Source: a virus. Taken from it: DNA of 23,482 nt. The notes beneath the pieces were generated by a model. The model had not been told where the DNA came from and did not search any database. It saw nothing but the letters and a program-made list of their open reading frames with translations. The translations under genes and the position numbers were made by a program. Positions 1 through 14,411 of the stretch are shown piece by piece (position 1 is the first letter of the stretch; every line of letters begins with the position of its first letter). The stretch covers positions 1 to 23,482 of the IMG/VR virus record IMGVR_UViG_3300038441_000972; one strand, given 5' to 3'.

Positions 1-112
1 GACCCCCTGGGGACCCCCGGGAGGGTCCTGGGGACCCTGGGGACCCCCTGGGGGAAGGGTCCCGGGGGTCCCGGGAGGGTCGACCGGTCGGAGGGTCGAC
101 CGGTCGGGAGGT
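1..112. repeat. GGGTCC/GGGACC-rich short repeats, left copy
   Basis: This is non-coding, very GC-rich sequence built from overlapping GGGTCC, GGGACC and CCCGGG words, followed by two direct copies of GGGTCGACCGGTCGG. No open frame resembles a gene. The 15-mer CCCCCGGGAGGGTCC at 14-28 recurs exactly at 5334-5348, on the other side of the leftward gene block. The function is unknown. The palindromic words could fold as terminator-like RNA or act as recombination-prone repeats. Confidence 0.6.
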
Positions 113-125
113 CGGACGCGACCAC

Positions 126-142
126 GACGAACGAACGCGCAG
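126..142 (+). other. half copy of the E1-E3 RNA element
   Basis: The 17-mer GACGAACGAACGCGCAG reads on the plus strand as the 5' half of the structured element seen at 946-1002, 3768-3828 and 4615-4679. It joins the E1/E2 outer-stem sequence GACGAACG, the AA internal loop, and the first seven bases (CGCGCAG) of the inner stem of E3. No matching 3' half follows, and the orientation is opposite to the full copies. It may be a decayed copy or a chance match. Confidence 0.3.
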
Positions 143-148
143 TGTGCA

Positions 149-190
149 CAACACGACCCCGACCCCCCGCAGGGAGTCGGGGTCGTGTTG
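149..190 (-). terminator. strong hairpin after the leftward operon
   Basis: A perfect 15-bp inverted repeat (149-163 with 176-190) encloses a 12-base loop. It starts about a dozen bases past the stop of the last leftward gene. No U tract is evident, so it would be a GC-rich actinobacterial-type terminator or an RNA 3' end stabiliser. It abuts palindrome site 1, whose first base it shares. The hairpin is directly visible; termination is inferred. Confidence 0.6.
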
Positions 191-204
191 ATAGGCGACT
201 ATCA
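189..204. promoter_or_regulatory. palindromic site 1 (TGATAG-N4-CTATCA)
   Basis: Full match to the 16-bp palindrome, with centre GCGA. The right arm contains TCA, which is the TGA stop codon of the leftward zinc-ribbon gene ending at 202. It lies directly behind the terminator hairpin. One of twelve sites in the window, proposed to bind a phage repressor. Confidence 0.7.
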
Positions 205-333
205 GTCGTCGGTCTGTACGGTCCCGCAGTCCACACACCTGCGCTCGACCGGACCGTGACCGCTCGTCTCGGTCGATCGTGCAGGACGCTCGACCTCGCG
301 TACGTCGGGTGACCCACACCGTTGACAGGTCAT
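202..333 (-). CDS. small zinc-ribbon-like protein
   Basis: A 43-residue protein with two CxxC knuckles (Cys3/Cys6 in CQRC and Cys33/Cys36 in CVDC), the spacing expected for one structural zinc site. Such mini zinc ribbons are common in phages and usually bind nucleic acid or a protein partner; the role here is not known. A longer frame starts at 387, but the ATG at 333 overlaps the upstream stop as ATGA, which favours the short form by translational coupling. It is the last gene of the leftward operon. Its stop codon lies inside palindrome site 1. Confidence 0.6.
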   Translation of the reverse strand: MTCQRCGSPDVREVERPARSTETSGHGPVERRCVDCGTVQTDD

Positions 334-524
334 CGGACGGACCGAACGATGTGCGCGATCATCGCGAGCGCGGTTCGTTCCTTCCATGAACCGCGGAGGA
401 CCGCGGCGATCGCGTCGACCGCGTCAGTGTCACGCTGCGCGGCGATCACACTGTCGTCCGCGGCGGTGACCATTTCGACAGTCCCGTCGAGATGTAACTG
501 CACTTCGAGCTCATGCGGATTCAC
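330..524 (-). CDS. hypothetical protein, 64 aa
   Basis: Not recognised. GTG start with a good Shine-Dalgarno (AAGGGAG) about eight bases upstream. The start lies just inside the upstream stop region, and the stop overlaps the next gene as ATGA, so it is part of a tightly coupled chain of small leftward genes. The protein has a charged N-terminal half and an Ala/Ile-rich helical-looking C-terminal half ending in Arg residues. No catalytic motif, signal peptide or membrane segment is seen. Confidence 0.55.
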   Translation of the reverse strand: MNPHELEVQLHLDGTVEMVTAADDSVIAAQRDTDAVDAIAAVLRGSWKERTALAMIAHIVRSVR

Positions 525-525
525 T

Positions 526-693
526 TCACTGCTCCCTTCGGATTGTTTCGTCGACGCGGGTCAGTAACGCTTGTTCGTTCGGTGTGCGGTCATCGACGGT
601 GTACCCGAGGTCCGCGAGCGTGCGCAGGTCCTCAGCGGGGACGAGGACGTACCGCTTGCCGTCCCCCGCTGTCCCGATCGCGTACGCGCTCAC
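526..693 (-). CDS. hypothetical protein, 55 aa
   Basis: Not recognised. A short gene read as GTG-AGC-GCG. The start overlaps the upstream stop by four bases (GTGA at 690-693), and its TGA ends one base before the next start. The product begins VSAYAIGTAGDGKRYVLVPA, then continues LRTLADLGYTVDD and ends in a charged helix. The double junction, with no gap on either side, is the main evidence that it is real. No known domain is visible. Confidence 0.5.
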   Translation of the reverse strand: MSAYAIGTAGDGKRYVLVPAEDLRTLADLGYTVDDRTPNEQALLTRVDETIRREQ

Positions 694-917
694 GTGACCA
701 ACCCCGCGAGTCGCTCCTGCGTCGTCTCGCTGATCGCGTAGGTACCGACCTGCCCGATGAACGTGACACGGAGCTGCTGGCCGGCGTTGACGAGCGCGAC
801 GATGGTCGCTTCCGCGGACGCGGACTCGCTCGCCATGAACCGCTTGACCGCGGTGATCCTGCCGTGGTCACCGAGTGACGCGACGATGATCGCCGCGTTG
901 TCGTATCGACTTGCCAT
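690..917 (-). CDS. hypothetical protein, 75 aa
   Basis: Not recognised. The open frame extends upstream to 1196, but that part is antisense-like Arg-rich sequence inside the neighbouring gene. The ATG at 917 follows an AAAGGGAA Shine-Dalgarno at good distance, so it is chosen as start. The protein begins MASRYDNAAIIVASLGDH and is rich in Ala, Ile and Val with no charged tail; it may be a small alpha/beta protein. The structured RNA element E1 lies directly upstream in the same transcript (946-1002), 28 bases before the start, so translation may be controlled there. Confidence 0.6.
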   Translation of the reverse strand: MASRYDNAAIIVASLGDHGRITAVKRFMASESASAEATIVALVNAGQQLRVTFIGQVGTYAISETTQERLAGLVT

Positions 918-945
918 GTCATTCCCTTTCGTTGGTGTGATGTGC

Positions 946-1002
946 GACGAACGTCGCGCCGAACCCACCGTCTCCCGACGGTGCGCTCGACGTTCGTTCG
1001 TC
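946..1002 (-). promoter_or_regulatory. structured RNA element E1
   Basis: Read as minus-strand RNA. Outer stem P1 is GACGAACG/CGTTCGTC. The internal loop is AA opposite CGA. Inner stem P2 is CGTCGAGC/GTTCGGCG with two G-U pairs. After one G-G mismatch comes terminal hairpin P3, CACCGTC/GACGGTG, with a GGGA tetraloop. The 5' end overlaps the stop codon of the vWA gene, and the 3' end is 28 bases before the start at 917. E2 and E3 share the architecture with different stem sequences. Function unknown: leader regulator, processing site or attenuator are all possible. Confidence 0.65.
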
Positions 1003-2836
1003 AGCGGTACCAGCTGCTGATCCGGTCCACCGCGACCTGACGGAACAGTCGCGCGAGGTCCGTCGGGTCCTCGATGTGCGCGACGTACTGACAACCGTGG
1101 TCCTGCGTCGCGCTCGTCCCGAGGAGAACACACATGGTCGTCACACCCGACTCTGCGAGTGCGACGATCGTCGCGTCGTTGTCGGTCGAGTACCAATCAC
1201 CGTCGGTCAACACGATGAACAACCGGTTCTTGGCGGACGCTCCTGCCAGGACCCTCCACGCTTCGTGGATTGCGGTCTTGGGTTGCGTCCCACCCTGCGA
1301 CGACGGGACGAACATGCGACCGTCGGGTCGATCCCCCGGAGCTGCGAGGAGACGGTGCGGTCCACTGTCGAACGTGACGACAGTGATGGTCCCTTCGAGG
1401 TCGTCGATTGCGTGCCGGATCGCGTACGTCGCTTCCCCGAGTGCGTGACACTGTTGGTGCATCGACCCCGACACGTCGAGGAGAAGAACGACCTCCAACT
1501 CGGCGGCGTCCATCATCCCCGGTTCGTACCGGTCGAACATTGCGTCGGGTTCGGTCGTCGGGTTCAACAACCTGCGGACGTTCAACTTGCCGGAGTCGGT
1601 ACGCCGGTTCCATCCGGGTTCGGCGTCGTTCTTCAGGTCCATCAACGCGTCGCTGACCTCGCGGTGAAGCTGACGTGCCGTGTCGGTCGGTTCGTCGTAC
1701 CGTCCTTTCGCGTCGTCACCTTCTGCGATGTCACCGGGTCGTCCGTACTCGACTGCGTCGGTGATCGAGTCGAGCTCGTCGGCGGCGGACTGGTCGTTGC
1801 GGATGATGTCTCGCGCTGCGTCCTTCAACGCTTTGCGGATCGTCCCCCGGGTCAGCGGTTCGCTCGGGGTGTCACCTGCACCCGCTCCACCTGCGTCGGC
1901 GTCGTCCCCACCTTCGGGGGTCTTGTCGGTCGCGCTGGTGTCACCTGCACCCGACCCGTCTCCGTCTCCGTCGTCGTCGTCGTCGTCCGCGTCGTCTCCG
2001 TCGCTCGCGTCGTCGTCGTCGTGTGCGTCGTCGTCGTCGGACTCAGCTTCGTCGGCGGTCGGGTACGGAGTGCCGGTCGGGTCGTCGGTGGTGGGTTCAC
2101 CGCCGTCCATGACGACACACGTACCGTTCGACGGCGGCGGCGGGTTGTCCTCGAACATGCGATGCAGTTCCTGCAACAACTCCCACGCGATGTCACACTC
2201 AGTGTCACCGGGATCGGTGAGACGTTGGTACTCGCCGACGATGCGCGTCACTTCGTCGGTGTCGTGCTGACCGCGGGTCGCGATCATGCGCGCTTTCGCG
2301 ACTGCGCGGACCGAGTCCGGCAACCACGTCCGTCCTGCCATCAACAACCACGCGCTCTCGTCATCGGCGACGAGGTGATGTCCGAGTGCGGCGGTGAGGT
2401 ACCCGGTCCACGGTGCGAACCGAGCGAGGATCAGTCGCTCCTGCCGTTGGTCCTCGACGATGTTGTGCATCGTCGCGATCCCCTTCAGGTACGCGCGGTC
2501 CGACTCAAGGACCCGGTACATGAGCGTCGATGTGCGACGCGGTGAGAACAGGACGTGACCAAGCTCATGTGCGTTCGTCCCCAACCAGACTGCGATGGCG
2601 GCGCGGTCATCGAGGTTCGGCATCCGGTTGTAAGCGAACGCGACCTTGTCACCTTCGAGTGTCGTCCACGCGGGTGCCGGACCTGCGTTGACGACTGCGA
2701 CACTGTCGAGGTCGACGGACAGAATCTGGTCGGTGAGTCGAAGCTCACGTGCCAGACGCTGGACTCTGAGTAGTTCGTAGGGGGACACTTCGTCGAGGTC
2801 GACGAGTGTGCTGCCGAGTCGTTGATCGTTCTTCAT
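1001..2836 (-). CDS. HExxH / von Willebrand A domain protein (CobT-like)
   Basis: A 611-residue protein. The N-terminal part carries the zinc-peptidase motif HELGH (90-94), with a possible third ligand near Glu128/Asp129 in NIVEDQRQE. Residues about 250-330 are an Asp-rich, low-complexity linker, seen in the DNA as GAC/GTC triplet runs at 1960-2045. The C-terminal vWA domain has the metal-ion site DVSGS (about 454-458) and LTDGD (about 542-546). The next gene in the transcript encodes a MoxR-type ATPase, and MoxR/vWA pairs usually act as chaperone machines that insert metals or remodel complexes. A CobT-type cobaltochelatase role is not implied. ATG start with AAGGGAAA upstream. Its stop overlaps E1. 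Confidence 0.8.
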   Translation of the reverse strand: MKNDQRLGSTLVDLDEVSPYELLRVQRLARELRLTDQILSVDLDSVAVVNAGPAPAWTTLEGDKVAFAYNRMPNLDDRAAIAVWLGTNAHELGHVLFSPRRTSTLMYRVLESDRAYLKGIATMHNIVEDQRQERLILARFAPWTGYLTAALGHHLVADDESAWLLMAGRTWLPDSVRAVAKARMIATRGQHDTDEVTRIVGEYQRLTDPGDTECDIAWELLQELHRMFEDNPPPPSNGTCVVMDGGEPTTDDPTGTPYPTADEAESDDDDAHDDDDASDGDDADDDDDDGDGDGSGAGDTSATDKTPEGGDDADAGGAGAGDTPSEPLTRGTIRKALKDAARDIIRNDQSAADELDSITDAVEYGRPGDIAEGDDAKGRYDEPTDTARQLHREVSDALMDLKNDAEPGWNRRTDSGKLNVRRLLNPTTEPDAMFDRYEPGMMDAAELEVVLLLDVSGSMHQQCHALGEATYAIRHAIDDLEGTITVVTFDSGPHRLLAAPGDRPDGRMFVPSSQGGTQPKTAIHEAWRVLAGASAKNRLFIVLTDGDWYSTDNDATIVALAESGVTTMCVLLGTSATQDHGCQYVAHIEDPTDLARLFRQVAVDRISSWYR

Positions 2837-2855
2837 GGTGTGCGTTTCCCTTCGT

Positions 2856-2871
2856 TGATAGTTGACTATCA
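2856..2871. promoter_or_regulatory. palindromic site 2
   Basis: Full TGATAG/CTATCA palindrome with centre TTGA. The right arm supplies the TGA stop of the AAA+ ATPase gene, and the site lies 20 bases upstream of the vWA start at 2836, between two genes of one operon. An intra-operon position fits a transcription-blocking (stoperator-like) role better than a promoter operator. Confidence 0.7.
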
Positions 2872-3738
2872 GGACAGACAGAGGTCGGCGCTGATCGCGT
2901 CGATGTTCGCTTCCATCGCTCGTGCGACCGGACCGCGCTCCTCGTGTGCGAACCGGTTGACGAACAGTCGAGCTGCGAGCGTCATCCCGAACCTGCCAGC
3001 GTGACGCTCGAACTCCATGAGCGCGTTCGTGCTGACCGGTGTGCGAATCTCCGCGAGTGACCTCATGTTCTCGGCGAGGTCGAGGAGTGTGCTCGAGTCA
3101 CACAACTGCTCCTCAACTGCGCGGTCGTAATCCCAATCAAGCTGGATTGCGAACCGGTTTTGGAACGCTTCGTTCAACCGGACTGCACCCTGGTACCGAG
3201 GGTTGTGCGCGCTCCCGAACAGTGTCGGTTGCGGGTCACCGAGTCCGCCCGCTCCGGCGATGATCGTCTCCCCGTTCTCGGGGACCGACATGCGCCGGGT
3301 GACCGCGAGGAGCTGGTGGAACCCTGCGGTGATCCGCGGATGTGCGAGTGACGCTTCGTCGACGAGTCCGGTGCCTCCGTACCGAACGACGAGCGTCAGG
3401 TCACCGTCGACGAACTCGACTGCGCCATCGGGACCGATGGTCGTGCGTCCGAGGATCGTTCCGATGTCCATTGACGCGTTGCATTCCACCAACGCGAACG
3501 GGAAGCGTCGCGCTGCGGCGTGCGCTCGGAACAGTGTCGTCTTGCTCGACCCGGTGGGACCGGCGAGGAGGACGTTCTCTCGCTCCTCGATTGCGGCGTC
3601 GAGTAGGTCGAAGTCGTCGAGACCCTCGATGTTGCGGTGGACGTACGCGTCGGCGAGTCGCTCATCGGGGATGAGTGCCTCCACTCGGTCACGTACGTCG
3701 GCGGGGACGGTGTTGATGTCGAACGTAGGAACAGTCAT
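2869..3738 (-). CDS. MoxR/CobS-like AAA+ ATPase
   Basis: A 289-residue ATPase. Walker A is GPTGSSKT (60-67), Walker B GLVDEAS (124-130), sensor-1 SAHNP (177-181) and the Arg finger lies in NRF (about 195). This order and size match the MoxR/CobS branch. It would form a ring that powers the partner vWA protein encoded next (1001-2836). ATG start with AGGAG nine bases upstream. Element E2 lies just before the Shine-Dalgarno, and palindrome site 2 covers the stop. Phage copies are known in several tailed phages, but their target is generally unknown. Confidence 0.85.
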   Translation of the reverse strand: MTVPTFDINTVPADVRDRVEALIPDERLADAYVHRNIEGLDDFDLLDAAIEERENVLLAGPTGSSKTTLFRAHAAARRFPFALVECNASMDIGTILGRTTIGPDGAVEFVDGDLTLVVRYGGTGLVDEASLAHPRITAGFHQLLAVTRRMSVPENGETIIAGAGGLGDPQPTLFGSAHNPRYQGAVRLNEAFQNRFAIQLDWDYDRAVEEQLCDSSTLLDLAENMRSLAEIRTPVSTNALMEFERHAGRFGMTLAARLFVNRFAHEERGPVARAMEANIDAISADLCLS

Positions 3739-3767
3739 TGCGTTTCTCCTGTGTGTGTGTGATGTGC

Positions 3768-3828
3768 GACGAACGTCGCGCCGAACACACGTCGACAGAT
3801 CGCGACGTGTGCTCGACGTTCGTTCGTC
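3768..3828 (-). promoter_or_regulatory. structured RNA element E2
   Basis: Same plan as E1: P1 GACGAACG/CGTTCGTC, AA opposite CGA, and P2 CGTCGAGC/GTTCGGCG with two G-U pairs. P3 is a different stem, ACACGTCG/CGACGTGT, stacked directly on P2 with an 8-base loop. It begins just after the TAA of the 244-residue gene and ends 29 bases before the ATPase start. P3 shares no sequence with the E1 P3, yet both pair perfectly. A short GT run (3751-3760) follows. Confidence 0.65.
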
Positions 3829-3829
3829 G

Positions 3830-4564
3830 TTACAGACCCCTCATGTCGGCGCGCTTGGCGACGGGACGCTTGGACCCGTTCGCTGCGGTCGACTTCGTGG
3901 GTGCGGGTGTCGACGGTGCTTTCGCTTTCGCTGCGACCTTCGACCGTGCGGCCTTCGCTCGGAGCTTCTCGACGTGTGCGATCACCTTCGTGAGCGACGC
4001 GTTGAGCTTGTCGAGGAGGTCGGTGTCGGTCGTGTTACCGATCGCTGCGATCAACTCCTTGCCACCGTTCGCTCGGAGGTCGAGGAGTAGATCGACCTGC
4101 TTCTGCGACGGTTGCGTCGCGCTCGCTTTCGACTTGGGGACTTTCCCCTGCGAGATTGCGATGTTCTTCCGAACCTGCGCGACGGTCACCTTGTTCGGAC
4201 CGAGGGTCTTGCTGATGTCTTTCAACATCTTCTCGGCGGCTGACGTGTTGCCATCCGACGCGATGAGGACCATCGCTTCCCGGTGTGCGGAGAAGCTGAC
4301 GTTCGGGACTCGCTTGGACGCGGGCCACCGTTGCGCGGTGTCTCGGTACAGGCGGAGTGTGTTGACTCGGAGGTTTCCGAGGACACCTTCCTGCGTCGCT
4401 TCGTCGATGATGACCTGGAAACCGCCGGCTCCCTTGGGGATCGCCGCGGCGAGTGCCTCGGCGAGCTCCCATCGGTCACCTTCGGTTTGTACGTCGCGCA
4501 TCTTGTCGAGGACACCGGCCATTTTCGCTTTGTCGATGCCGTTGTTCGTCGGTGTTGCTGACAT
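3830..4564 (-). CDS. hypothetical protein, 244 aa, possibly DNA-binding
   Basis: Not firmly recognised. The start is the ATG at 4564 (MSATPTNNG), preceded by GAAAGG; an upstream extension to 4639 is unlikely. The first half has regular helices and a stretch LRLYRDTAQRWPASKRV followed by VSFSAHREAM. It reminds me of helix-turn-helix-type proteins of actinobacterial plasmids and phages, but I cannot name the family. The second half contains a Gln/Leu helix and ends in a Lys/Ala/Pro-rich basic tail, typical of nucleic-acid-binding proteins. Element E3 precedes it in the transcript. Confidence 0.6.
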   Translation of the reverse strand: MSATPTNNGIDKAKMAGVLDKMRDVQTEGDRWELAEALAAAIPKGAGGFQVIIDEATQEGVLGNLRVNTLRLYRDTAQRWPASKRVPNVSFSAHREAMVLIASDGNTSAAEKMLKDISKTLGPNKVTVAQVRKNIAISQGKVPKSKASATQPSQKQVDLLLDLRANGGKELIAAIGNTTDTDLLDKLNASLTKVIAHVEKLRAKAARSKVAAKAKAPSTPAPTKSTAANGSKRPVAKRADMRGL

Positions 4565-4601
4565 GGTGGAACCTTTCGGTTGTGCTGATGTCGTGAGTCC
4601 G

Positions 4602-4781
4602 TCACGACGCGGGAGACATGAACGTCTCGCGCAACTCACGACCGATCGCTCGGTCGTGTGCTGCGCGTTCGTTCATGTCGACGACCGTCAGGATGTGGAC
4701 GCTTGCCAGCGTTCGGTCGTCGTCTGCGTTTTGCGTCAGCCCCTTGTCATCGGTTCGACGGGTGGACGTGTCGTTTGCCAT
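4602..4781 (-). CDS. hypothetical protein, 59 aa
   Basis: Not recognised. First gene after the long leftward leader. Start taken at the ATG at 4781 (MANDTST), although its Shine-Dalgarno is weak (GGAAG adjacent to the ATG); a TTG at 4880 would add 33 residues. The protein is polar, with VHILTVVDMNERA in the middle. The last 26 or so codons coincide with structured element E3, which is intergenic in its other copies. Either the gene has grown over the element or the frame is spurious there. Confidence 0.4.
   Translation of the reverse strand: MANDTSTRRTDDKGLTQNADDDRTLASVHILTVVDMNERAAHDRAIGRELRETFMSPAS
4615..4679 (-). promoter_or_regulatory. structured RNA element E3
   Basis: Same plan as E1/E2 with changed stems. 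P1 is GACATGAACG/CGTTCATGTC, the internal loop is AA opposite AGA, and P2 is CGCGCAGC/GTTGCGCG with one G-U pair. After one A-A mismatch comes P3, CACGACCGA/TCGGTCGTG, with a GCGA tetraloop (GNRA type). Compared with E1, three P2 pairs change on both sides while pairing is kept, and P1 gains two pairs. It ends about 50 bases before the start of the 244-residue gene. Confidence 0.6.
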
Positions 4782-5118
4782 CTTCCGATGCGCCACGGGT
4801 TCTGTCTCCGTGTCCTCGACCGTTGCCCGACTGCCCTGATGTGAAAGGGGATCGGGTCGTGAGGTTCGTGCGTTCTGCAAACGATTCGCTTCACTCCACC
4901 GTTATGAACTTCGAGCGTTGTGCGTTCTTACCGACTGACGCTCTCGCTTCCCTGTATCCCTGCGGCTCCCGGGGGAGTCCTCGCTTGACCGTGGGGTTGC
5001 GTCTGCGCTCTGTGTCGAAACACTCCGCTCGCTTGTGTGGATTGCCAGTCCTATGTCGATGACCGTCGGGTCGGCGGCGGAGGCGATCAACCTCCTCATC
5101 CCTGTACCGGGGACCGTC

Positions 5119-5141
5119 GAGCGCGATGTGCGCTCTCATAC
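5119..5141 (-). repeat. leader hairpin copy B (GTATGA + stem)
   Basis: On the minus strand GTATGA is followed by GAGCGC, loop ACATC, GCGCTC and then GA. Copy A, 63 bases away, has the same GTATGA and GAG...CTC frame, but its inner three pairs are TCC/GGA instead of CGC/GCG. Pairing kept through sequence change suggests the fold matters. Confidence 0.5.
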
Positions 5142-5183
5142 ACCGTGTGCGACGTGCGTCGCTCCCAGGTGCGAACCGGGATC

Positions 5184-5204
5184 GAGTCCGGGGGACTCTC
5201 ATAC
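5184..5204 (-). repeat. leader hairpin copy A (GTATGA + stem)
   Basis: On the minus strand GTATGA is followed by GAGTCC, loop CCC, GGACTC and then GA. Partner of the copy at 5119-5141. It lies about 30 bases downstream of the expected start of the leftward transcript, so it would be near the 5' end of that RNA. Confidence 0.5.
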
Positions 5205-5240
5205 TCGGAGGGTCCCGGGGGACCAAGCGAGCGAACCTCA

Positions 5241-5249
5241 AGTGTATCA
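5241..5249 (-). promoter_or_regulatory. candidate leftward promoter (extended -10)
   Basis: The minus strand reads TGATACACT, an extended -10 (TGnTAnAnT type) at the head of the leftward leader. No good -35 box is seen, which is tolerated with an extended -10. The box overlaps a TATCACC half-site and lies five bases from palindrome site 3, so a protein bound there would cover the promoter. Inferred from motif and position. Confidence 0.45.
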
Positions 5250-5253
5250 CCGG

Positions 5254-5269
5254 TGATAGTCAACTATCA
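5254..5269. promoter_or_regulatory. palindromic site 3 at the leftward promoter
   Basis: Full palindrome with centre TCAA and the longest arms seen (GGTGATAG/CTATCACC, 20 bp; site 12 shares these arms). Just to its left TATCACC (5245-5251) is a third half-site, forming a second palindrome TATCACCGGTGATA (5245-5258). It is intergenic and overlaps the -35 region of the candidate leftward promoter, so it is the best candidate for a primary operator. Confidence 0.7.
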
Positions 5270-5362
5270 CCCGGGGGGACCCCTAGTCCCGTATGGGTTG
5301 TGGGGTCGCCTATAGGTAGGAGGGTCCGAGGTCCCCCCGGGAGGGTCCCGGGACCCGACCCC

Positions 5363-5707
5363 CTACCCGATGTCCCAGAGTCCCAGCGCGCCGCGAACGC
5401 GTACCGGTCGACGTGTGCGGCGCGGGTCCTCGAGGACCCAGTGCCAGTGACCCGGTCGCGCCCACTCGCTGCGGGAATCTCTGACGACATCGACAAGACG
5501 GACCGTGGCGATCACGAGACCGCGGACGTGACAGAGCTCGTCCGCAGGGTCCCACCATTCGGCGTCGACGTTCGGGTCCATACGTCCGGCGTGGATCGCG
5601 AACCGTTCACCGATCGCAATGGTCGGTTCCCAGGTTCGGTTCTCTACGTCTTTCGTTCCGCGCGCGATGAGTCCCGCCCACGGTTGACGTACGGTCAGTG
5701 CTTTCAT
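5363..5707 (-). CDS. ASCH-domain protein
   Basis: A 114-residue protein beginning MKALTVRQPWAGLIARGTKD, then VENRTW, the typical N-terminus of ASCH domains (a small beta-barrel fold related to PUA, thought to bind RNA or modified nucleotides). The full length fits a stand-alone ASCH protein. Conserved Trp residues and HAGRMD follow. Phage copies are frequent and their substrate is usually unknown. The transcript appears leaderless: TAAGCT lies six bases before the ATG. Terminator-like repeats follow the stop. I infer RNA or nucleotide binding only from the family. Confidence 0.75.
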   Translation of the reverse strand: MKALTVRQPWAGLIARGTKDVENRTWEPTIAIGERFAIHAGRMDPNVDAEWWDPADELCHVRGLVIATVRLVDVVRDSRSEWARPGHWHWVLEDPRRTRRPVRVRGALGLWDIG

Positions 5708-5713
5708 ACCCGC

Positions 5714-5719
5714 AGCTTA
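5714..5719 (-). promoter_or_regulatory. leaderless -10 box for the ASCH gene
   Basis: The minus strand has TAAGCT, then six bases, then ATG. This is the spacing expected when transcription starts at the start codon. No Shine-Dalgarno is present. No convincing -35 is seen. Confidence 0.5.
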
Positions 5720-5747
5720 CCGTACTTAGAGGACTAACGGACGCACC

Positions 5748-5763
5748 AGATAGCCGCCTATCA
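5748..5763. promoter_or_regulatory. palindromic site 4
   Basis: AGATAG-CCGC-CTATCA: one flank base departs from the consensus. The right arm gives the TGA stop of the cupin-like gene. The site is about 40 bp upstream of the ASCH start on the leftward strand, in the zone where an upstream operator could act. Confidence 0.65.
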
Positions 5764-6420
5764 GTCGTCCTCGACAGGGAACTGCAAGCGCAGGACCCGC
5801 GCTCCCGACTGTCCCGCTTGACCCTTCAGCTGCGACCCCGCGTCGAGCCAGCGCGCGGACACGGCGGACACGTCGTCGATGTCACCGCCGATCACGACGA
5901 CGAACCCTCCCCCGCCGCCCATCTCCAACGCGAGCGTCTCGTGACGCAACAGGTTCGACGCGCTCACCGTCAACCCGTCGTCGTCGCCGTACTGGACATC
6001 GCGCCAGCAGGTATCGAGCGCAGTCAGGTCGAACGTCAACCCGCGGGGTGCGACCGGTCGACGTTCCGCGAGCACGTCATGCGAATCTGGCATGTAGAAC
6101 GGACCCGGGTCGTGTTCACGGCGCAGCGTCAAGTAGCACAGACCGTTGTCGTCGGGACGCACCGGGCCGTACACGCGGTGACGGTCGACGTACCGCACCA
6201 TCCCCTTCGACATGCGCGACCGACCGATGATGCCGCCACCACCGACGATGACCTGGAACTGCGAGACATCGTGGAAGTGCGACGCGATCACCGACCCGTT
6301 CGGTTGCTTCAGCGCCTGCACCTGCGGACCCTTGGTGTCGGGGTCGAGGTCACCGGCGAGCATCGCACGGTCGAACCGTTCGATCGGCAGCTTGAACTCG
6401 GGGAAGTGCAGCCATTCCAT
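5761..6420 (-). CDS. cupin-like protein
   Basis: A 219-residue protein. The region around residues 43-65 (GSVIASHFHDVSQFQVIVGG) looks like cupin motif 1, with His-x-His followed by a Gln and a Gly-rich turn. A second region, LRHETLALEMGGGGGFVVVIGG, may be a second barrel half. The family includes dioxygenases, isomerases and pure binding proteins, so substrate and activity cannot be assigned. It is unusual beside phage genes and may be an acquired metabolic or defence gene. The ATG is preceded at seven bases by TAGCGT, so the transcript is probably leaderless. Its start codon is only 20 bp from the divergent ParB-like gene. Confidence 0.55.
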   Translation of the reverse strand: MEWLHFPEFKLPIERFDRAMLAGDLDPDTKGPQVQALKQPNGSVIASHFHDVSQFQVIVGGGGIIGRSRMSKGMVRYVDRHRVYGPVRPDDNGLCYLTLRREHDPGPFYMPDSHDVLAERRPVAPRGLTFDLTALDTCWRDVQYGDDDGLTVSASNLLRHETLALEMGGGGGFVVVIGGDIDDVSAVSARWLDAGSQLKGQAGQSGARVLRLQFPVEDD

Positions 6421-6426
6421 CCGCCG

Positions 6427-6433
6427 TACGCTA
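6427..6433. promoter_or_regulatory. shared bidirectional -10 element
   Basis: TACGCTA reads as TACGCT eight bases before the rightward ATG (6441) and, on the other strand, as TAGCGT seven bases before the leftward ATG (6420). Only 20 bp separate the two start codons and there is no room for Shine-Dalgarno sites. One near-symmetric -10 box probably serves both leaderless genes. The -35 boxes, if any, would lie inside the coding regions and are weak. Confidence 0.5.
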
Positions 6434-6440
6434 CCGACCT

Positions 6441-7031
6441 ATGACGACTCACAACATTGCTGCACCGCTCGAGACGCTCGCCGCGCCCGTCACGAACCTC
6501 ACCGAACTACCCGGCAACCCGAGACGTGGCGACATCGACGCCATCGCTCGTTCGCTGCGCGTGTTCGGTCAGCGCAAACCGGTGACCGCCCGGGTGACCG
6601 GCAGGGACGAGAACGACGACCCCGTCGGGTACGTCACCGCCGGGAACCACACACTGCACGCTGCCCGCGACCGGCTCGGGTGGTCGCATCTGGCAGTCGT
6701 GTGGATCGAGGAGGACGAGACGACCGCGAACGCGTGGGCACTCGCCGACAATCGGCTCTCCGAGATTGGCGACAACGACCCCGACGAGCTCGCTGCGCTC
6801 CTCGCGCAGATCGCCGAGGACGGCAGTCACGAGCTGTTCGCCGCGACCGCCTACACCGACGACGACCTCGCTGCACTCCTCGCGTCGTCGATGCCGCCAC
6901 CGGGTGACGCACCGCTGACCGATTTCCCCGAGCAGTGGGGCGTCATCGTCGAGGTCGACAACGAATCCGAGCAGGTCGAGCTGCTCACCCAGCTGTCTGC
7001 CGACGGCTATCGCGTGAGGGCGATGATGTGA
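6441..7031 (+). CDS. ParB-like nuclease-domain protein
   Basis: A 196-residue protein with the ParB/Srx-type domain in its first half: NPRRGDIDAIARSL, then RKPVTARVTG and VTAGNHTLHAARDRLGW, where the nuclease-like GNHT/R segment corresponds to the NTP-binding box of ParB. It continues with ALADNRLSEIGDND, typical of phage ParB-like proteins near DNA modification or packaging genes. The C-terminal part (GVIVEVDNESEQVELLTQL) looks like a separate small domain. It overlaps the next gene by three bases (ATGTGA), so the two are co-translated. Because its neighbour carries an ATPase and an acyltransferase-like domain, a role in DNA modification is inferred rather than partition. Confidence 0.75.
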   Translation: MTTHNIAAPLETLAAPVTNLTELPGNPRRGDIDAIARSLRVFGQRKPVTARVTGRDENDDPVGYVTAGNHTLHAARDRLGWSHLAVVWIEEDETTANAWALADNRLSEIGDNDPDELAALLAQIAEDGSHELFAATAYTDDDLAALLASSMPPPGDAPLTDFPEQWGVIVEVDNESEQVELLTQLSADGYRVRAMM

Positions 7032-8185
7032 GGGCCGACGTGACCGTCTCCGTCGACATCGAGCACACGCCGCGCATCCTTCAGACCGGCGCGATGTTCG
7101 ACGTGCCACCCGACACGCACATCTCCCGGTCGTGGACCGCGGACCTGCCGATCGAGGACCAGCCCTGGTCAGTCGGCCTGATCGTCGGTCCATCCGGTGC
7201 CGGGAAATCGTCAGTCGCTCGTCGCTGCTTCACCGTGCAGCCCACCCCCGAATGGCGTGACGACGCCAGCGTCCTCGACTGCTTCCCCGACGACATGTCG
7301 ATCCGGGCAATCATCGACCTGCTGACGAGCGTCGGGTTCTCGTCACCGCGTGCGTGGATGCGGCCCTACTCGACGCTCAGTACCGGCGAGCAGTTCCGTG
7401 TCGACTGCGCTCGTCGTCTTGCCGAAGCGCCCCCCGGGGAGATTGTGACCATCGACGAGTTCACGTCCGTCGTCGACCGGCAGGTCGCGCAGGTCGCGTC
7501 ATCGACGGTTGCGAAAACGGTCCGCCGGCAGGGACGCCAGCTCGTCGCCGTGACCTGTCATTACGACGTGGTCGAGTGGCTGCAACCCGACTGGATTTAC
7601 CAACCGCACGCAGAGCACTTCACCTGGAGGTCGGTTCAATCCCGACCGCAGTTGGAGCTTGGCATCTATCCAATCCATCGCTCCGCGTGGCGAGTGTTTG
7701 CGCCGCATCACTATCTGAGCGCCAAGCTGCACCCGGGAGCGCAATGCTTCGGTGGGTTCATCAACGACGAGTGCGTCATGTTCATGTCGTTCCTGCACTT
7801 CATGCACCCGCAGGCGAAGAACCTGAAGATGGGTCACCGGCTCGTCGTGCTCCCCGACTGGCAGGGGCTCGGTCTGTCGGAACGCATGGGCGAGACGATG
7901 GGGCAGTACCTCTACGAGCAGGGGTACCGGTACCGGGTCGTGACCGCGCACCCGGCACTCATCCGGAGCCGCTCGAGGTCGCCACGGTGGAAGCTCGTCA
8001 GCGGCGGTCCGGGTCGGCGCCTGCACTCGGACTCGACGGTGGAGCGGTGGCGGAAGGCTGCGCTTGATCCTCGCCGGTACAACACGTACTCGTTCGAGTA
8101 TGTGGCTCCGCAAACAGTGCCGCCAGCTCCTCCCGATCGCGGGGGTGTTGACCGTGCAGGTAGTGGAACTGCTCTCGATCGTTGA
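7028..8185 (+). CDS. ABC-type ATPase fused to GNAT acyltransferase-like domain
   Basis: A 385-residue protein starting at the GTG that overlaps the ParB stop. The first half is an ABC ATPase without membrane segments: Walker A GPSGAGKS (54-61), signature LSTGEQ (117-122), Walker B VTIDE (140-144) and switch His178 in TCHYD. The second half (about 215-330) resembles a GNAT fold, with the acyl-CoA-binding loop VLPDWQGLGLS (274-284). This arrangement matches the family known as ABC ATPase fused to predicted acetyltransferase (COG2401 type). GNAT-like proteins such as phage Mu Mom modify adenine, so DNA modification is a reasonable inference. The C-terminal 60 codons are antisense to the sulfotransferase gene. 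Confidence 0.75.
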   Translation: MRADVTVSVDIEHTPRILQTGAMFDVPPDTHISRSWTADLPIEDQPWSVGLIVGPSGAGKSSVARRCFTVQPTPEWRDDASVLDCFPDDMSIRAIIDLLTSVGFSSPRAWMRPYSTLSTGEQFRVDCARRLAEAPPGEIVTIDEFTSVVDRQVAQVASSTVAKTVRRQGRQLVAVTCHYDVVEWLQPDWIYQPHAEHFTWRSVQSRPQLELGIYPIHRSAWRVFAPHHYLSAKLHPGAQCFGGFINDECVMFMSFLHFMHPQAKNLKMGHRLVVLPDWQGLGLSERMGETMGQYLYEQGYRYRVVTAHPALIRSRSRSPRWKLVSGGPGRRLHSDSTVERWRKAALDPRRYNTYSFEYVAPQTVPPAPPDRGGVDRAGSGTALDR

Positions 8186-8747
8186 CGTGCGGGAACGGGA
8201 CATCGGGGACCGGTGCGTTCAAGAATCCGCACAGCGGTGCCCACCCGTCGGTCACGTCGTGCACCAGGAGCCGACGTGATGGGACTCCGTCGATCACGGC
8301 AGCGTTGTGGGCTTGATAGGCGGCTATCACGTCGGCGCGGGTGAGCGTGTCGAGTGGTCGTCCGAAGCTGCGCTGCTCGACGACCTCGACGACGAAGCGT
8401 CGGAGTGCGACGACCCACGGTGTGCGCGCTGGTCGGTGTGCACGGCGGACGACTTCACCGACGGTGTCGTCGAAGCTGTCCCACCACCGGTCGGGATCGC
8501 GCACACTGAGGACGACGTACGCGTCGGGGTACATGGCGGTCAGCTCACGCCAGTAGGTGCACGCAGGCCAGTCGACGGTGGCGCGGTACCCGTCGAGGAC
8601 GTGCAGGTCACCGTGCCGCCAGCGTTCCATGTGGTCGTCCTGGTAGGCGGCGTACATGTGGTAGCAGGGGTCGTAGCCGAGCGTCTCGAGCGCGTGCTTG
8701 AGCGACAGTGTGCCTGTGCGACCGAATCCGGCACCGATGACCTGCAT
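7998..8747 (-). CDS. sulfotransferase-family protein
   Basis: A 249-residue protein starting at the ATG at 8747, with TAAGGAAA seven bases before it. The N-terminus MQVIGAGFGRTGTLSLKHAL contains the 5'-phosphosulfate-binding loop of PAPS sulfotransferases (Sulfotransfer_4-like). AYVVLSVRDPDRWWDSF matches the 3'-phosphate-binding segment. Substrate unknown; surface glycans or lipids of the host are plausible. It is antisense to its neighbours and may be an expressed lysogenic cargo gene. After about residue 215 (ALFAEP) the sequence becomes low-complexity Ser/Thr/Pro and runs 188 bases under the ATPase/GNAT gene. The true end may once have been near 8100. Palindrome site 5 lies inside it. Confidence 0.75.
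   Translation of the reverse strand: MQVIGAGFGRTGTLSLKHALETLGYDPCYHMYAAYQDDHMERWRHGDLHVLDGYRATVDWPACTYWRELTAMYPDAYVVLSVRDPDRWWDSFDDTVGEVVRRAHRPARTPWVVALRRFVVEVVEQRSFGRPLDTLTRADVIAAYQAHNAAVIDGVPSRRLLVHDVTDGWAPLCGFLNAPVPDVPFPHVNDREQFHYLHGQHPRDREELAALFAEPHTRTSTCCTGEDQAQPSATAPPSSPSAGADPDRR
8314..8329. promoter_or_regulatory. palindromic site 5 (intragenic)
   Basis: Full consensus with centre GCGG, inside the sulfotransferase coding region and the only copy buried in a gene. It is about 420 bp downstream of that gene's start, again suggesting a block to elongation rather than initiation. Confidence 0.65.
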
Positions 8748-8759
8748 GTGTTTCCTTAG

Positions 8760-8789
8760 TTGGCTTACGACCGGTAGTGCTGCTACCCT
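8760..8789 (+). promoter_or_regulatory. leaderless promoter of the RHH/HicA-like pair
   Basis: TTGGCT (8760-8765) and TACCCT (8784-8789) are 18 bp apart, and the ATG follows the -10 box after exactly six bases. Both hexamers match sigma-70-type elements reasonably. No Shine-Dalgarno is present, so the messenger is probably leaderless. Confidence 0.55.
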
Positions 8790-8795
8790 GCCGGT

Positions 8796-8972
8796 ATGAC
8801 TACTGACAACAGCAAGACCAGGAATCGTACGAAGCCCGATACGACCGGCCTCGTCGGCATCAACGTGCTGATCCCCGAGGCGTTGCACAAGCGTGTGCGG
8901 GTCAAGTCCGTCAACAATGGTCTCACGATGACCGACGCTATCGAGCAGGCACTCAAGGCATGGCTGCGATGA
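8796..8972 (+). CDS. ribbon-helix-helix protein (possible antitoxin)
   Basis: A 58-residue basic protein. After a disordered N-terminus, GINVLIPEALHKRVRVKSV starts as a beta strand and first helix, and LTMTDAIEQALKAWL is the second helix, the standard pattern of CopG/Arc/ParD DNA-binding dimers. Such proteins often repress their own operon and neutralise a toxin. It overlaps the next gene as ATGA. The downstream protein looks HicA-like, so an antitoxin-toxin pair is inferred, although classical HicA partners are larger HicB proteins. Confidence 0.6.
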   Translation: MTTDNSKTRNRTKPDTTGLVGINVLIPEALHKRVRVKSVNNGLTMTDAIEQALKAWLR

Positions 8973-9202
8973 GTAACGAACTGCGCGGTCTCCGTGACCG
9001 CGAGAGACAGCTCGTCCGTGGGCTACTCGCCGCGGGCTGGACGCTGCATCGGCAGGGGAACAAGCACTTCCGACTCCGGCATCCCGACGGTGTGCACGGC
9101 GTGACGTTCGGCGGTACGTCGTCGGACAATCGTTCGTGGTTGAACTTCCGTGCGGACATACGTCGCGTCGAGCGAGCCGTCGCTGCGGAGGCAGCGTCGT
9201 GA
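8969..9202 (+). CDS. HicA-like small RNA-binding protein (possible toxin)
   Basis: A 77-residue protein. The core GWTLHRQGNKHFRLRHPDG is followed by VTFGGTSSDNRSWLNFRADIRR, like the compact double-stranded-RNA-binding fold of HicA mRNA interferases: Gly-Trp strand, then a basic strand with HFRLRHPDG, then the C-terminal helix. HicA uses a conserved His in that strand; His61 of the Mu-type numbering cannot be assigned, but KHF and RHPD are present. The start overlaps the preceding stop (ATGA), and the stop overlaps the next GTG. Could also be a phage regulator of the same fold. Confidence 0.5.
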   Translation: MSNELRGLRDRERQLVRGLLAAGWTLHRQGNKHFRLRHPDGVHGVTFGGTSSDNRSWLNFRADIRRVERAVAAEAAS

Positions 9203-9411
9203 GGGGCTGGTGGGGGATGGCGTGCTGGAACGGTCTGAGCGCCGACCAGCAACGACGACTCGTCGAGTGGGGCAACCTACCCATCGGTTACACGCCGGAT
9301 GGCGCCTGCGAGTCAGGCGCGGAGGTCGCGGTCGAGACGCAGCACGACACCGCGCACGGACCCCGGTTCTACTGTCGGGCGTGCGCGGTCGCGTACCTCG
9401 ACGAGCGGTAG
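9199..9411 (+). CDS. small Cys-containing protein, 70 aa
   Basis: Not assigned a function. Starts with GTG overlapping the upstream stop (GTGA); an ATG at 9217 is the alternative. The sequence MACWNGLSADQQRRLVEWG, then PIGYTPDGAC and RFYCRACAVAYL is of a type I recall from other actinobacterial phages, always as hypothetical. Cys residues in GAC-ESG and YCRAC could bind one metal ion. It ends one base before the convergent stop of the next leftward gene. Confidence 0.6.
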   Translation: MRGWWGMACWNGLSADQQRRLVEWGNLPIGYTPDGACESGAEVAVETQHDTAHGPRFYCRACAVAYLDER

Positions 9412-9690
9412 TCAGCCCTCGTCAGGATTGGCAGGGTTCGGATCGTCCGAGCTCTGCTGCTGTGCGAGCTGCGCCTCAGCTTCCGCGCGGGCCTGTTCTT
9501 CACTGAGGTCCGGGCCGACGACGATGTACCCGGTGGGGGTATCGCCGGGCTGCGCGTCGGTGTGCGGGCCGGTGAGGATGACGCGAGGAGTCTCGCCGCT
9601 TTCGGTGACCTGCGGGGTCACGTCAGCGGTCGGCTCGTCGGAGGGCTGCTCGCCCTCATGCTGCTCAGGATCGTTCTGCTGCTCAGTCAT
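9412..9690 (-). CDS. acidic low-complexity protein, 92 aa
   Basis: Not recognised. Very acidic and rich in Glu, Pro, Gln and Asp, with a short ordered-looking core (PRVILTGPHTD, then GYIVVGPDLSEEQARAEAEAQLAQQ). Likely intrinsically disordered with one helix. It follows the other leftward gene 12 bases away and ends flush against the convergent stop. ATG start without a clear ribosome site. A location beside the portal suggests a packaging or scaffolding accessory, but this is only positional. Confidence 0.5.
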   Translation of the reverse strand: MTEQQNDPEQHEGEQPSDEPTADVTPQVTESGETPRVILTGPHTDAQPGDTPTGYIVVGPDLSEEQARAEAEAQLAQQQSSDDPNPANPDEG

Positions 9691-9702
9691 GCAGCGACGG
9701 TA

Positions 9703-10020
9703 CTACTGCTGTGGCGGCTGCGGCTGCGACGAGCCCGACGACTGCGTCGGCGACGGCTGTGGCTGTGTCGTGAACTGGCCCCCCGTGGTGTCGGACGGCT
9801 GTGGCTTGTCCGACGACTGCGACTGCGACTGCGCCTGCATCTCCTGGGCCTGCTTCTCCTGCTCCTTGACCGCGTCGGCCTGCGCCTCGTTCTGCGCGTT
9901 GACCTGCTGCTCGCGGAGACGGGCCAGCTTCTCGTTGCGCTCGTCGTCGGTGAGGCTGCGGTCGCGCTCGAGCTCGTCGACCTGCTCCTGGTACTGCTGT
10001 GCGGTCATGTTCTCACCCAT
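9703..10020 (-). CDS. Gln-rich coiled-coil protein, 105 aa
   Basis: Not recognised. The first 70 residues form an obvious charged helix (MTAQQYQEQVDELERDRSLT and on), likely a coiled coil. The rest is Gln/Ser/Pro low-complexity ending in PQPPQQ. ATG at 10020 with AGAGGAG at suitable spacing. It is divergent from the portal gene, with palindrome site 6 in between. The composition recalls scaffolding or assembly proteins, but the leftward orientation is unlike a normal structural gene. Confidence 0.55.
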   Translation of the reverse strand: MGENMTAQQYQEQVDELERDRSLTDDERNEKLARLREQQVNAQNEAQADAVKEQEKQAQEMQAQSQSQSSDKPQPSDTTGGQFTTQPQPSPTQSSGSSQPQPPQQ

Positions 10021-13089: not shown

Positions 13090-14346
13090 ATGCCCCACGC
13101 ACTCGTCGAGGACTACATCCGCGAACGCGACGACCTCGTCAACACCGTCAACGTGCTCAAGAACAACGCCGCCGACCGCGGCAAGGACCCGACTGCCGAC
13201 GACCTCGAGATGATGACGAAGTCGTACGCACGCATCGACCGGCTCGACGAGATGATCGCCGTGCTCGGACGCGACACGACGATGGACCAGGAGACGCGCG
13301 ACAAGCTGCTCTCCCCGACGCCGGGTCCGCCGTCGGAGGTCATGTACCGCTCGGGTGGCGAGATGCTGTGGGACTGCCTGCACGGCACGTTCGGCAGCTC
13401 TCACGACCACGACGACCAGGACGCGAAGCGTCGCTGGGACCTCGTGATGAAGCGTGCCGCCGAGCACATGGGCACGAAGGCATCGAACACGACCCCGGTC
13501 GCGGGCGATGTCGGCGGTCTGTTCGTCGCACCCATCGTCGGTCCGGTCATCGACCTGTCGCCGAAGGGTCAGCCGTTTCTCTCGGCGATCGGGCGGCAGC
13601 AGGCACCGAACGCGCTGACGTTCTCGCGTCCGCGCATCGTCGACCCGAACCTCAAGACAGGCGGCGCGGCCCAGCAGACGTTGGAGAAGGCCGAGCTCGT
13701 CTCCAAGAAGTTCGACATCAAGGTCGACAACCTGTCGCTCAACACGTACGGCGGCTACCTCAACGTGTCGCAGCAGCTCATGTCGCTGCAACCGGCGGGG
13801 TGGAACATCATCATCAGCCAGCTGCAACGTCGTGTCGCGTGGCAGGGTGAGGCAGCGGCGCTCACCGCCCTCGCGTTGACGACGGCGAAGGTCACGCTCG
13901 CGGCGGGAGCGACTGCCGCAGTGACGATCAAGGCGTTGTACGACGCGGCGGCGCTCGTCTACACGAACACGTCGGAGCTGCCGACGTGGATCACGTACGG
14001 ACCCGCGGGCTGGGCGATGCTCGGCTCGCTGGTCGACTCGGCGGGCCGTCCACTGTTCCCGTACCTGGGGGCGGCGAACGCGATCGGTACCGCGTCACTC
14101 GACAGCTTCAACCTCGGTCCGCTCGGGTTGCAGTCGATCCTCACGCCGGCCATCACCGACACCAAGATTTACGTCGGCAACAGCTCGGCGCTCGAGGCGT
14201 ACGTCTACCCGTTCCCGGTCCTCGAAGCCGTCGAGCCTGCACTGCTCGGTCGTCAGGTCGCGGTCGCTGAGGCGATCGCGTTCTACCGGCCCGTGACGAA
14301 CGAGACAGGGCCGGTCAGCAACGGCGCTGTGCTTGTCGGTCCGTAA
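13090..14346 (+). CDS. major capsid protein (HK97 fold)
   Basis: A 418-residue protein with GGGAGG before the ATG. The first 90 or so residues are a helical delta domain (ERDDLVNTVNVLKNN...). The mature part begins around TKASNTTPVAGDVGG. GLFVAPIVGPVIDLS and LNVSQQLM are typical of the HK97 N-arm and P/A domains. IKVDNLSLNTYGGYLNVSQQ and the C-terminal ALLGRQVAVAEAIAFYRP support the assignment. It assembles the icosahedral shell after cleavage by the preceding protease. A strong hairpin follows the stop. Confidence 0.9.
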   Translation: MPHALVEDYIRERDDLVNTVNVLKNNAADRGKDPTADDLEMMTKSYARIDRLDEMIAVLGRDTTMDQETRDKLLSPTPGPPSEVMYRSGGEMLWDCLHGTFGSSHDHDDQDAKRRWDLVMKRAAEHMGTKASNTTPVAGDVGGLFVAPIVGPVIDLSPKGQPFLSAIGRQQAPNALTFSRPRIVDPNLKTGGAAQQTLEKAELVSKKFDIKVDNLSLNTYGGYLNVSQQLMSLQPAGWNIIISQLQRRVAWQGEAAALTALALTTAKVTLAAGATAAVTIKALYDAAALVYTNTSELPTWITYGPAGWAMLGSLVDSAGRPLFPYLGAANAIGTASLDSFNLGPLGLQSILTPAITDTKIYVGNSSALEAYVYPFPVLEAVEPALLGRQVAVAEAIAFYRPVTNETGPVSNGAVLVGP

Positions 14347-14356
14347 CACGACGTGG

Positions 14357-14390
14357 GTGGGGCGGCGGTAACCACCTGCCGCCGCCCCAC
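14357..14390 (+). terminator. GC-rich hairpin after the capsid gene
   Basis: Perfect 12-bp stem, GTGGGGCGGCGG/CCGCCGCCCCAC, with a 10-base loop, 11 bases after the stop. No U tract follows, so it may be a partial terminator or an RNA stabiliser that keeps capsid mRNA abundant. Confidence 0.55.
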
Positions 14391-14411
14391 TCGCACACGG
14401 AAGGACACGAC

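Follow-up and report, generated by a model that had tools for sequence, protein, structure and literature searches.

Three copies of a structured RNA in a leftward phage operon: a candidate intercistronic mRNA element

Three related elements (E1, E2, and E3) in the leftward operon of an IMG/VR virus record very probably form a functional RNA structure on the sense strand. By analogy with known systems, we tentatively propose that they may be helix-dependent intercistronic mRNA elements for processing or insulation, a reading that we rate a little short of probable and whose main rival is an element bound by a regulator. The window analysed here is the whole record of 23,482 bases; its plus strand carries portal, head, and tape-measure genes, and the leftward operon lies at 690-4781 (Table 1). 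In the order in which it is read, the operon encodes the protein P3, an AAA ATPase, a VWA-domain protein, and a 75-aa ORF that matched no family. E1 and E2 each sit between a stop codon and the next ribosome-binding site of this one operon, E3 is placed ahead of P3, and the gap of 32 nt ahead of the VWA gene is without an element. Because E3 lies inside a possible 59-aa frame, for which the search gave no homologue, it may not be strictly intergenic. No tRNA-like identity was found. Stop-codon read-through at E1 (UGA followed by the hairpin) was considered and rejected; the continued frame differs from that of the 75-aa ORF.

Table 1. Coordinates of the operon genes, the RNA elements and their parts, and the dispersed palindrome in the window.
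Feature	Position	Strand	Details
Small ORF, 75 aa	690..917	(-)	Downstream of E1; start codon 28 nt after E1
Unpaired tail, E1 copy (GCACATCACACC region)	934..945	(-)	Common to E2; shared run CGCACATCACAC begins at the last base of E1
hp2 of E1	944..957	(-)	GCGAC-GUUC-GUCGC; mutually exclusive with P1; forms once the 5′ strand of P1 is blocked
E1	946..1002	(-)	P1 1002-995/953-946; internal loop AA 994-993 / CGA 956-954; P2 992-985/964-957; P3 helix 983-977/972-966; loop GGGA
VWA-domain protein	1001..2836	(-)	UGA stop overlaps the base of E1
AAA ATPase, MoxR/CobS-like, Pfam AAA_5	2869..3738	(-)	Downstream of E2; start codon 29 nt after E2
Unpaired 12-nt tail, E2 copy	3756..3767	(-)	Common to E1
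hp2 of E2	3766..3779	(-)	Same sequence as in E1; from blocking of the 5′ strand of P1
E2	3768..3828	(-)	P1 3828-3821/3775-3768; loop AA / CGA 3778-3776; P2 3818-3811/3786-3779; terminal hairpin 3810-3787
P3, predicted helical, ParB/Noc-like DNA-binding fold	3830..4564	(-)	Stop codon 1 nt before E2; start codon 50 nt after E3
Possible ORF, 59 aa	4602..4781	(-)	3′ half overlaps E3
hp2 of E3	4613..4628	(-)	GAGAC-GUUCAU-GUCUC; from blocking of the 5′ strand of P1 and from sequence
E3	4615..4679	(-)	P1 10 bp with paired AT insertion, 4679-4670/4624-4615; loop AA / AGA 4627-4625; P2 4667-4660/4635-4628; terminal hairpin 4659-4636, GCGA loop
16-bp palindrome, 12 sites	189, 2856, 5254, 5748, 8314, 10062, 12916, 15095, 16820, 19085, 22744, 23438		

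The initial annotation had described one minus-strand plan for all three copies, and we confirmed both this plan and its coordinates: an outer stem (P1) of 8, 8, and 10 bp in E1, E2, and E3, an internal loop of AA opposite CGA, CGA, and AGA, and a second stem (P2) of 8 bp. The terminal hairpin differs in sequence in each copy while remaining paired in all, and two of its loops are of GNRA type (GGGA and GCGA), as had also been stated. The minimum free energies on the minus strand are -43.6, -43.8, and -47.5 kcal/mol for E1, E2, and E3 (shuffle z of -5.0, -5.2, and -5.6; 0 of 200 shuffles were as good), and the plus strand folds less stably (-34.3, -40.7, and -45.9). When 15,614 windows of 63 nt from the two strands of the contig are ranked by stability, E3, E2, and E1 come fourth to sixth. 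E1 and E2 match in sequence with E = 9e-16: both arms are identical, the tips differ yet still pair, and outside the tip the two are near-identical, including an unpaired tail, CGCACATCACAC, that was absent from the initial annotation. That annotation also counted three second-stem pairs changed on both sides between copies; pairing is indeed kept, but only two such pairs belong to the second stem (C-G to G-C and G-C to C-G), the third both-sided change between E1/E2 and E3 (C-G to U-A) being in the outer stem, and one further second-stem pair is altered on one side only (U-G to C-G). The outer stem of E3 carries in addition a 2-bp insertion that is matched on both strands. Pair counting over the three copies gives 100% pairing, although statistics from three sequences are weak alone (26 of 500 shuffles were as good).

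Several observations point to RNA, rather than DNA, as the level at which the elements act. Wobble pairs were found on the sense strand, in line with the earlier placement of the G-U pairs on the leftward RNA: in the stems of 33 elements, with both classes scored alike, sense-strand G-U pairs outnumber A-C by 57 to 16, and RNA function is therefore favoured (nominal binomial 1.5e-6, a value that is overstated since the paralogues are not independent, with a clear direction). Whole-gap folding is less consistent, since some regions, such as G3_4 and the wider E3 region, fold better antisense. The strongest covariation comes from L050 (G007), a relative with seven copies that have almost the plan of E1-E3, each made of a 4-bp outer stem, a 2x2 internal loop, an inner stem, and a variable tip, followed by a flush second hairpin. 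There, 99.2% of cells pair, and 12 of the 18 pairs change on both sides (in 28 cells); none of 500 shuffles and no slid register comes close, with the qualification that the paired segments were extracted by hand, so that the alignment leans towards structure. This strong covariation argues for selection for pairing. Together with the better sense-strand fold of E1-E3 and the sense-strand wobble, it supports the earlier proposal of an RNA function in the leftward transcript.

Relatives were gathered by scanning IMG/VR with alignments of the ATPase, P3, and the VWA protein, and about 15 contigs hold the operon or part of it. In several of them, the corresponding gaps of this operon contain intercistronic hairpins in multiple copies, with sequences of their own and shorter helices (11-18 bp). 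For example, G003 (L007) has four copies of GTGACGTTCAGCGAGT-hairpin-GTTCGGTGCACGAGCACC, the third ending in CACACGCACC; G001 and G004 have two and three copies of CAGCGG-hairpin-ACGATGC-(6 nt)-GCATCC; and L040 has at least two hairpin copies. In G003, as in L050, a second hairpin stands close behind the first. A whole-contig repeat search in G001, G003, and G004 placed the copies in this operon and in sense orientation, plus a few partial matches elsewhere that we read as chance. Copies within a genome are more alike than copies from different genomes (median local score 23 vs 14). In L014, L035, L037, and L052 the same genes occur with the elements absent or the gaps short or unstructured; the operon thus does not need the elements. 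Among isolates, the nearest ATPases are those of Gordonia phages (∼39% identical). In the phages Gray, UBSmoodge, and ChisanaKitsune, gaps ahead of the related ATPase contain hairpins that follow a stop codon and precede a ribosome-binding site. In Gray such hairpins occupy gaps 70-71 and 71-72, and its record annotates no feature there; GMA6 and DalanDe have no hairpin in the gap immediately before the ATPase.

The statement that no described motif has this plan holds for Rfam 15: the window gave no match at the gathering score, the region around E1-E3 none at E <= 1, and the elements of the relatives likewise none. The covariance-model search proposed in the initial annotation returned no convincing copy elsewhere; over 19 sources (∼276 kb), the model built from E1-E3 found only the three copies, their opposite strands, and weak matches (E 0.001-10) that we regard as chance. 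Exact and degenerate arm patterns gave one exact match in viral contigs, with flanks that do not continue the motif, and then none. Searching 50,697 phage records for distant DNA similarity to the region gave no match, P3 had no relative among them, and bacterial and archaeal genomes scanned with the ATPase alignment gave no relative. Since the exact motif was found in no other sequence searched, an outcome that the initial annotation had named as speaking against its motif, E1-E3 are a lineage-specific version; what recurs across relatives is the position and general plan, not the exact motif. As for known signals, neither a terminator-like site (a G+C-rich hairpin with a U run) at E1-E3 nor a sigma-70-like promoter in window 1-10000 was found.

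P3 is conserved with the operon and was absent from the isolated phages searched. Its predicted structure is helical (mean pLDDT 85), and residues 11-141 have their best structural matches in DNA-binding domains, those of Noc, Spo0J, ParB, and KorB (Z 8.5 to 6.3); this grouping comes from a second structural alignment only, Foldseek having given no significant match, and Z values in this range can reflect a common helical arrangement. A 16-bp palindrome (TGATAGACGTCTATCA in relatives, TGATAGNNNNCTATCA in the window), whose format recalls parS, recurs every ∼2-3 kb and often provides a gene's stop codon. It is also present in contigs G001-G006, G009, G010, and G014 (15 in G002, 19 exact in G010) and was absent from G007 (L050), G008, and G011. 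Its sites are spaced more evenly than at random in G000 (P 0.002), G002 (0 of 20,000), and G006 (0.001), not in G001 and G003. P3 might bind this dispersed palindrome.

Other stable or repetitive sequences occur as well. In the capsid operon, an 18-bp hairpin at about 14353-14394 (window 14325-14410, plus strand) follows the stop codon of the major head protein gene and precedes the next ribosome-binding site, as E1 and E2 do in the leftward operon. At window 120-215 (plus strand), a very stable 13-14-bp hairpin, AACACGACCCCGAC...GTCGGGGTCGTGTT (z -6.6), adjoins a palindrome copy and is preceded by a copy of ACGAACGAACGCGCAG, which resembles the 5′ arm of E3. The contig end (window 1-120) carries G- and C-rich short repeats like GGGACCCCCTGG, and similar CCCCCAGGGAC arrays occur at 266-480 of L050. 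The gap elements at 2042-2128 and 2392-2478 of L050 are 93% identical, with outer stem, internal loop, and inner stem as in the seven copies and a second hairpin (GAGAGAC...GTCTCTC / GTTTCTC), and they add two examples of the general plan.

In the processing or insulation reading, E1-E3 would be copies of a cis-acting RNA element in the gene gaps of one leftward polycistronic mRNA, acting, as we infer, through a long, nearly continuous helix (∼23-27 pairs with a small asymmetric internal loop) and not through a loop. The individual cistrons would be separated and protected by a nuclease specific for double-stranded RNA (RNase III of the host, or a phage-directed equivalent), by the helix as a barrier, or by both, and each downstream ribosome-binding site, 28-50 nt away, would be left free. 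We favour recognition of the helix because the tips change with pairing kept, the loops are unconserved, a U run is lacking, and the ribosome-binding site is free. Against this, the 11-18 bp helices of the relatives are close to or below the usual helix requirement of RNase III, some relatives with the same genes have no elements, and the lower arms and tail of E1 and E2 are conserved beyond what a pure helix would need, which recent duplication or sequence-specific recognition may explain.

Sequence-specific recognition is what the main rival supposes: a phage-specific RNA regulon, in which an RNA-binding protein acting in trans, from the phage or its host, binds the conserved lower part and jointly controls translation or stability across the operon. 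We consider this possible though rather doubtful. The greater likeness of copies within a genome, with conserved arms around fast-changing tips, is what a recognition code of each lineage's own would produce, and the 12-nt unpaired tail common to E1 and E2 fits as well; duplication or gene conversion would, however, yield the same pattern, the elements leave the ribosome-binding site uncovered at their distance from the start codon, and no protein stood out as a candidate RNA binder, P3 looking like a DNA-binding protein.

In folding predictions, blocking the 5′ strand of the outer stem lets its 3′ strand form a 5-bp hairpin (hp2) flush with the second stem in all three copies; this fold has an energy of -34.6 to -36.3 kcal/mol, and the full fold one of -43.6 to -47.5. 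We treat this alternative fold as a lead. It could make the elements an attenuator, or a switch that responds to translation: a ribosome terminating at the stop codon upstream would cover the 5′ strand of P1, P1 would open, and hp2 would form and alter downstream pausing, termination, or decay. E1 begins at a stop codon and E2 1 nt after one, hp2 of E3 differs from that of E1/E2 by one pair changed on both sides, and the second hairpins of G003 and L050 fit such a device. We nevertheless hold it to be distinctly unlikely, with support for hp2 in the window amounting to that one pair, no U-rich tail behind the elements and just one terminator-like site within 10 kb, E3 not directly following a known stop codon, and the outer stem and hp2 coexisting in L050, where they are not alternatives. 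In a broader reading, which we consider unlikely, the elements belong to a class of phage intercistronic RNAs whose sequence changes fast and is particular to each lineage, while the architecture is common to all: an outer stem, a small internal loop, an inner stem, and a second hairpin that is flush or competing. Such elements might either sense ribosome passage at the stop codon upstream, as a switch, or be bound by a regulator particular to the lineage.

The concerted copies within genomes, their patchy presence and absence among relatives, and the possible location of E3 inside a reading frame could also mark REP- or MITE-like hairpin cassettes without an essential role, spreading or copied within each phage genome; we think this very unlikely, as the copies found are sense-oriented and in one operon, and the covariation in L050 implies selection for pairing. 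Inverted repeats acting on DNA, as operators or promoter-linked sites like those suggested for the extended start-associated sequences (ESAS) that E1-E3 resemble in near-gene-start position and inverted-repeat form (PMC3203893), are highly improbable given the sense-strand wobble bias, the better sense-strand fold, the negative search for a sigma-70-like promoter in window 1-10000, and arms that vary in concert with no kept consensus.

The elements point to a layer of mRNA structure between the genes of actinophage-like operons that is selected for pairing and not for sequence, and that annotation based on sequence misses for this reason. Because several genomes, L050 above all, have many internal copies, this layer is directly testable by covariation.

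The nearest pattern already reported in actinophages is that of the ESAS in cluster K mycobacteriophages, each a 17-bp imperfect inverted repeat with a spacer of 4-13 bp immediately upstream of a gene start; there are several copies per genome, the consensus varies by phage subgroup, and differences between the arms fail to preserve RNA pairing (PMC3203893). They contain SigA-like -35 and -10 hexamers (PMC11373665). E1-E3 are similarly multi-copy, imperfect inverted repeats with a variable spacer upstream of genes, but their total paired length is 23-27 and their 3′ end lies 28-50 nt from the start codon, changes preserve pairing both in E1-E3 and in the relative L050, window 1-10000 gave no promoter-like site, and no SAS-type box was noticed at the starts. 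Since the unpaired departures and SigA promoters of ESAS are not found here, E1-E3 are not members of that group. The Gordonia hairpins of Gray, UBSmoodge, and ChisanaKitsune share the setting, with several per genome, each placed after a stop codon and before the ribosome-binding site of genes that immediately precede a related AAA ATPase; they differ in sequence, in being simple hairpins in the smaller gaps, and in their T-containing tail (TTTCAYGTTTCAC). We call E1-E3 an uncharacterised example, not in Rfam, among phage intercistronic hairpins, which are already known as a kind.

The put antitermination RNA of HK022 is a cis-acting two-hairpin RNA that makes RNA polymerase terminator-resistant. 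The T7 early transcript bears several RNase III sites. One of these, R1.1, is 60 nt long, has an asymmetric internal loop, lies in the interval from gene 1.0 to gene 1.1, and is cut by RNase III (PMC6121014); the actinobacterial RNase III AbsB cuts mRNA (PMC2936110). E1-E3 are irregular hairpins with a long double-stranded helix in intercistronic regions, a form that RNase III processing sites also have. Unlike the T7 sites, their arms share sequence, their internal loop has 2/3 nt (4/5 nt in R1.1), and the stems of their relatives are shorter. Like R1.1, they are about 60 nt long, have an asymmetric internal loop, and lie between consecutive genes of one transcript; by this analogy in position and plan, T7 R1.1 is the closest putative functional counterpart of E1-E3.
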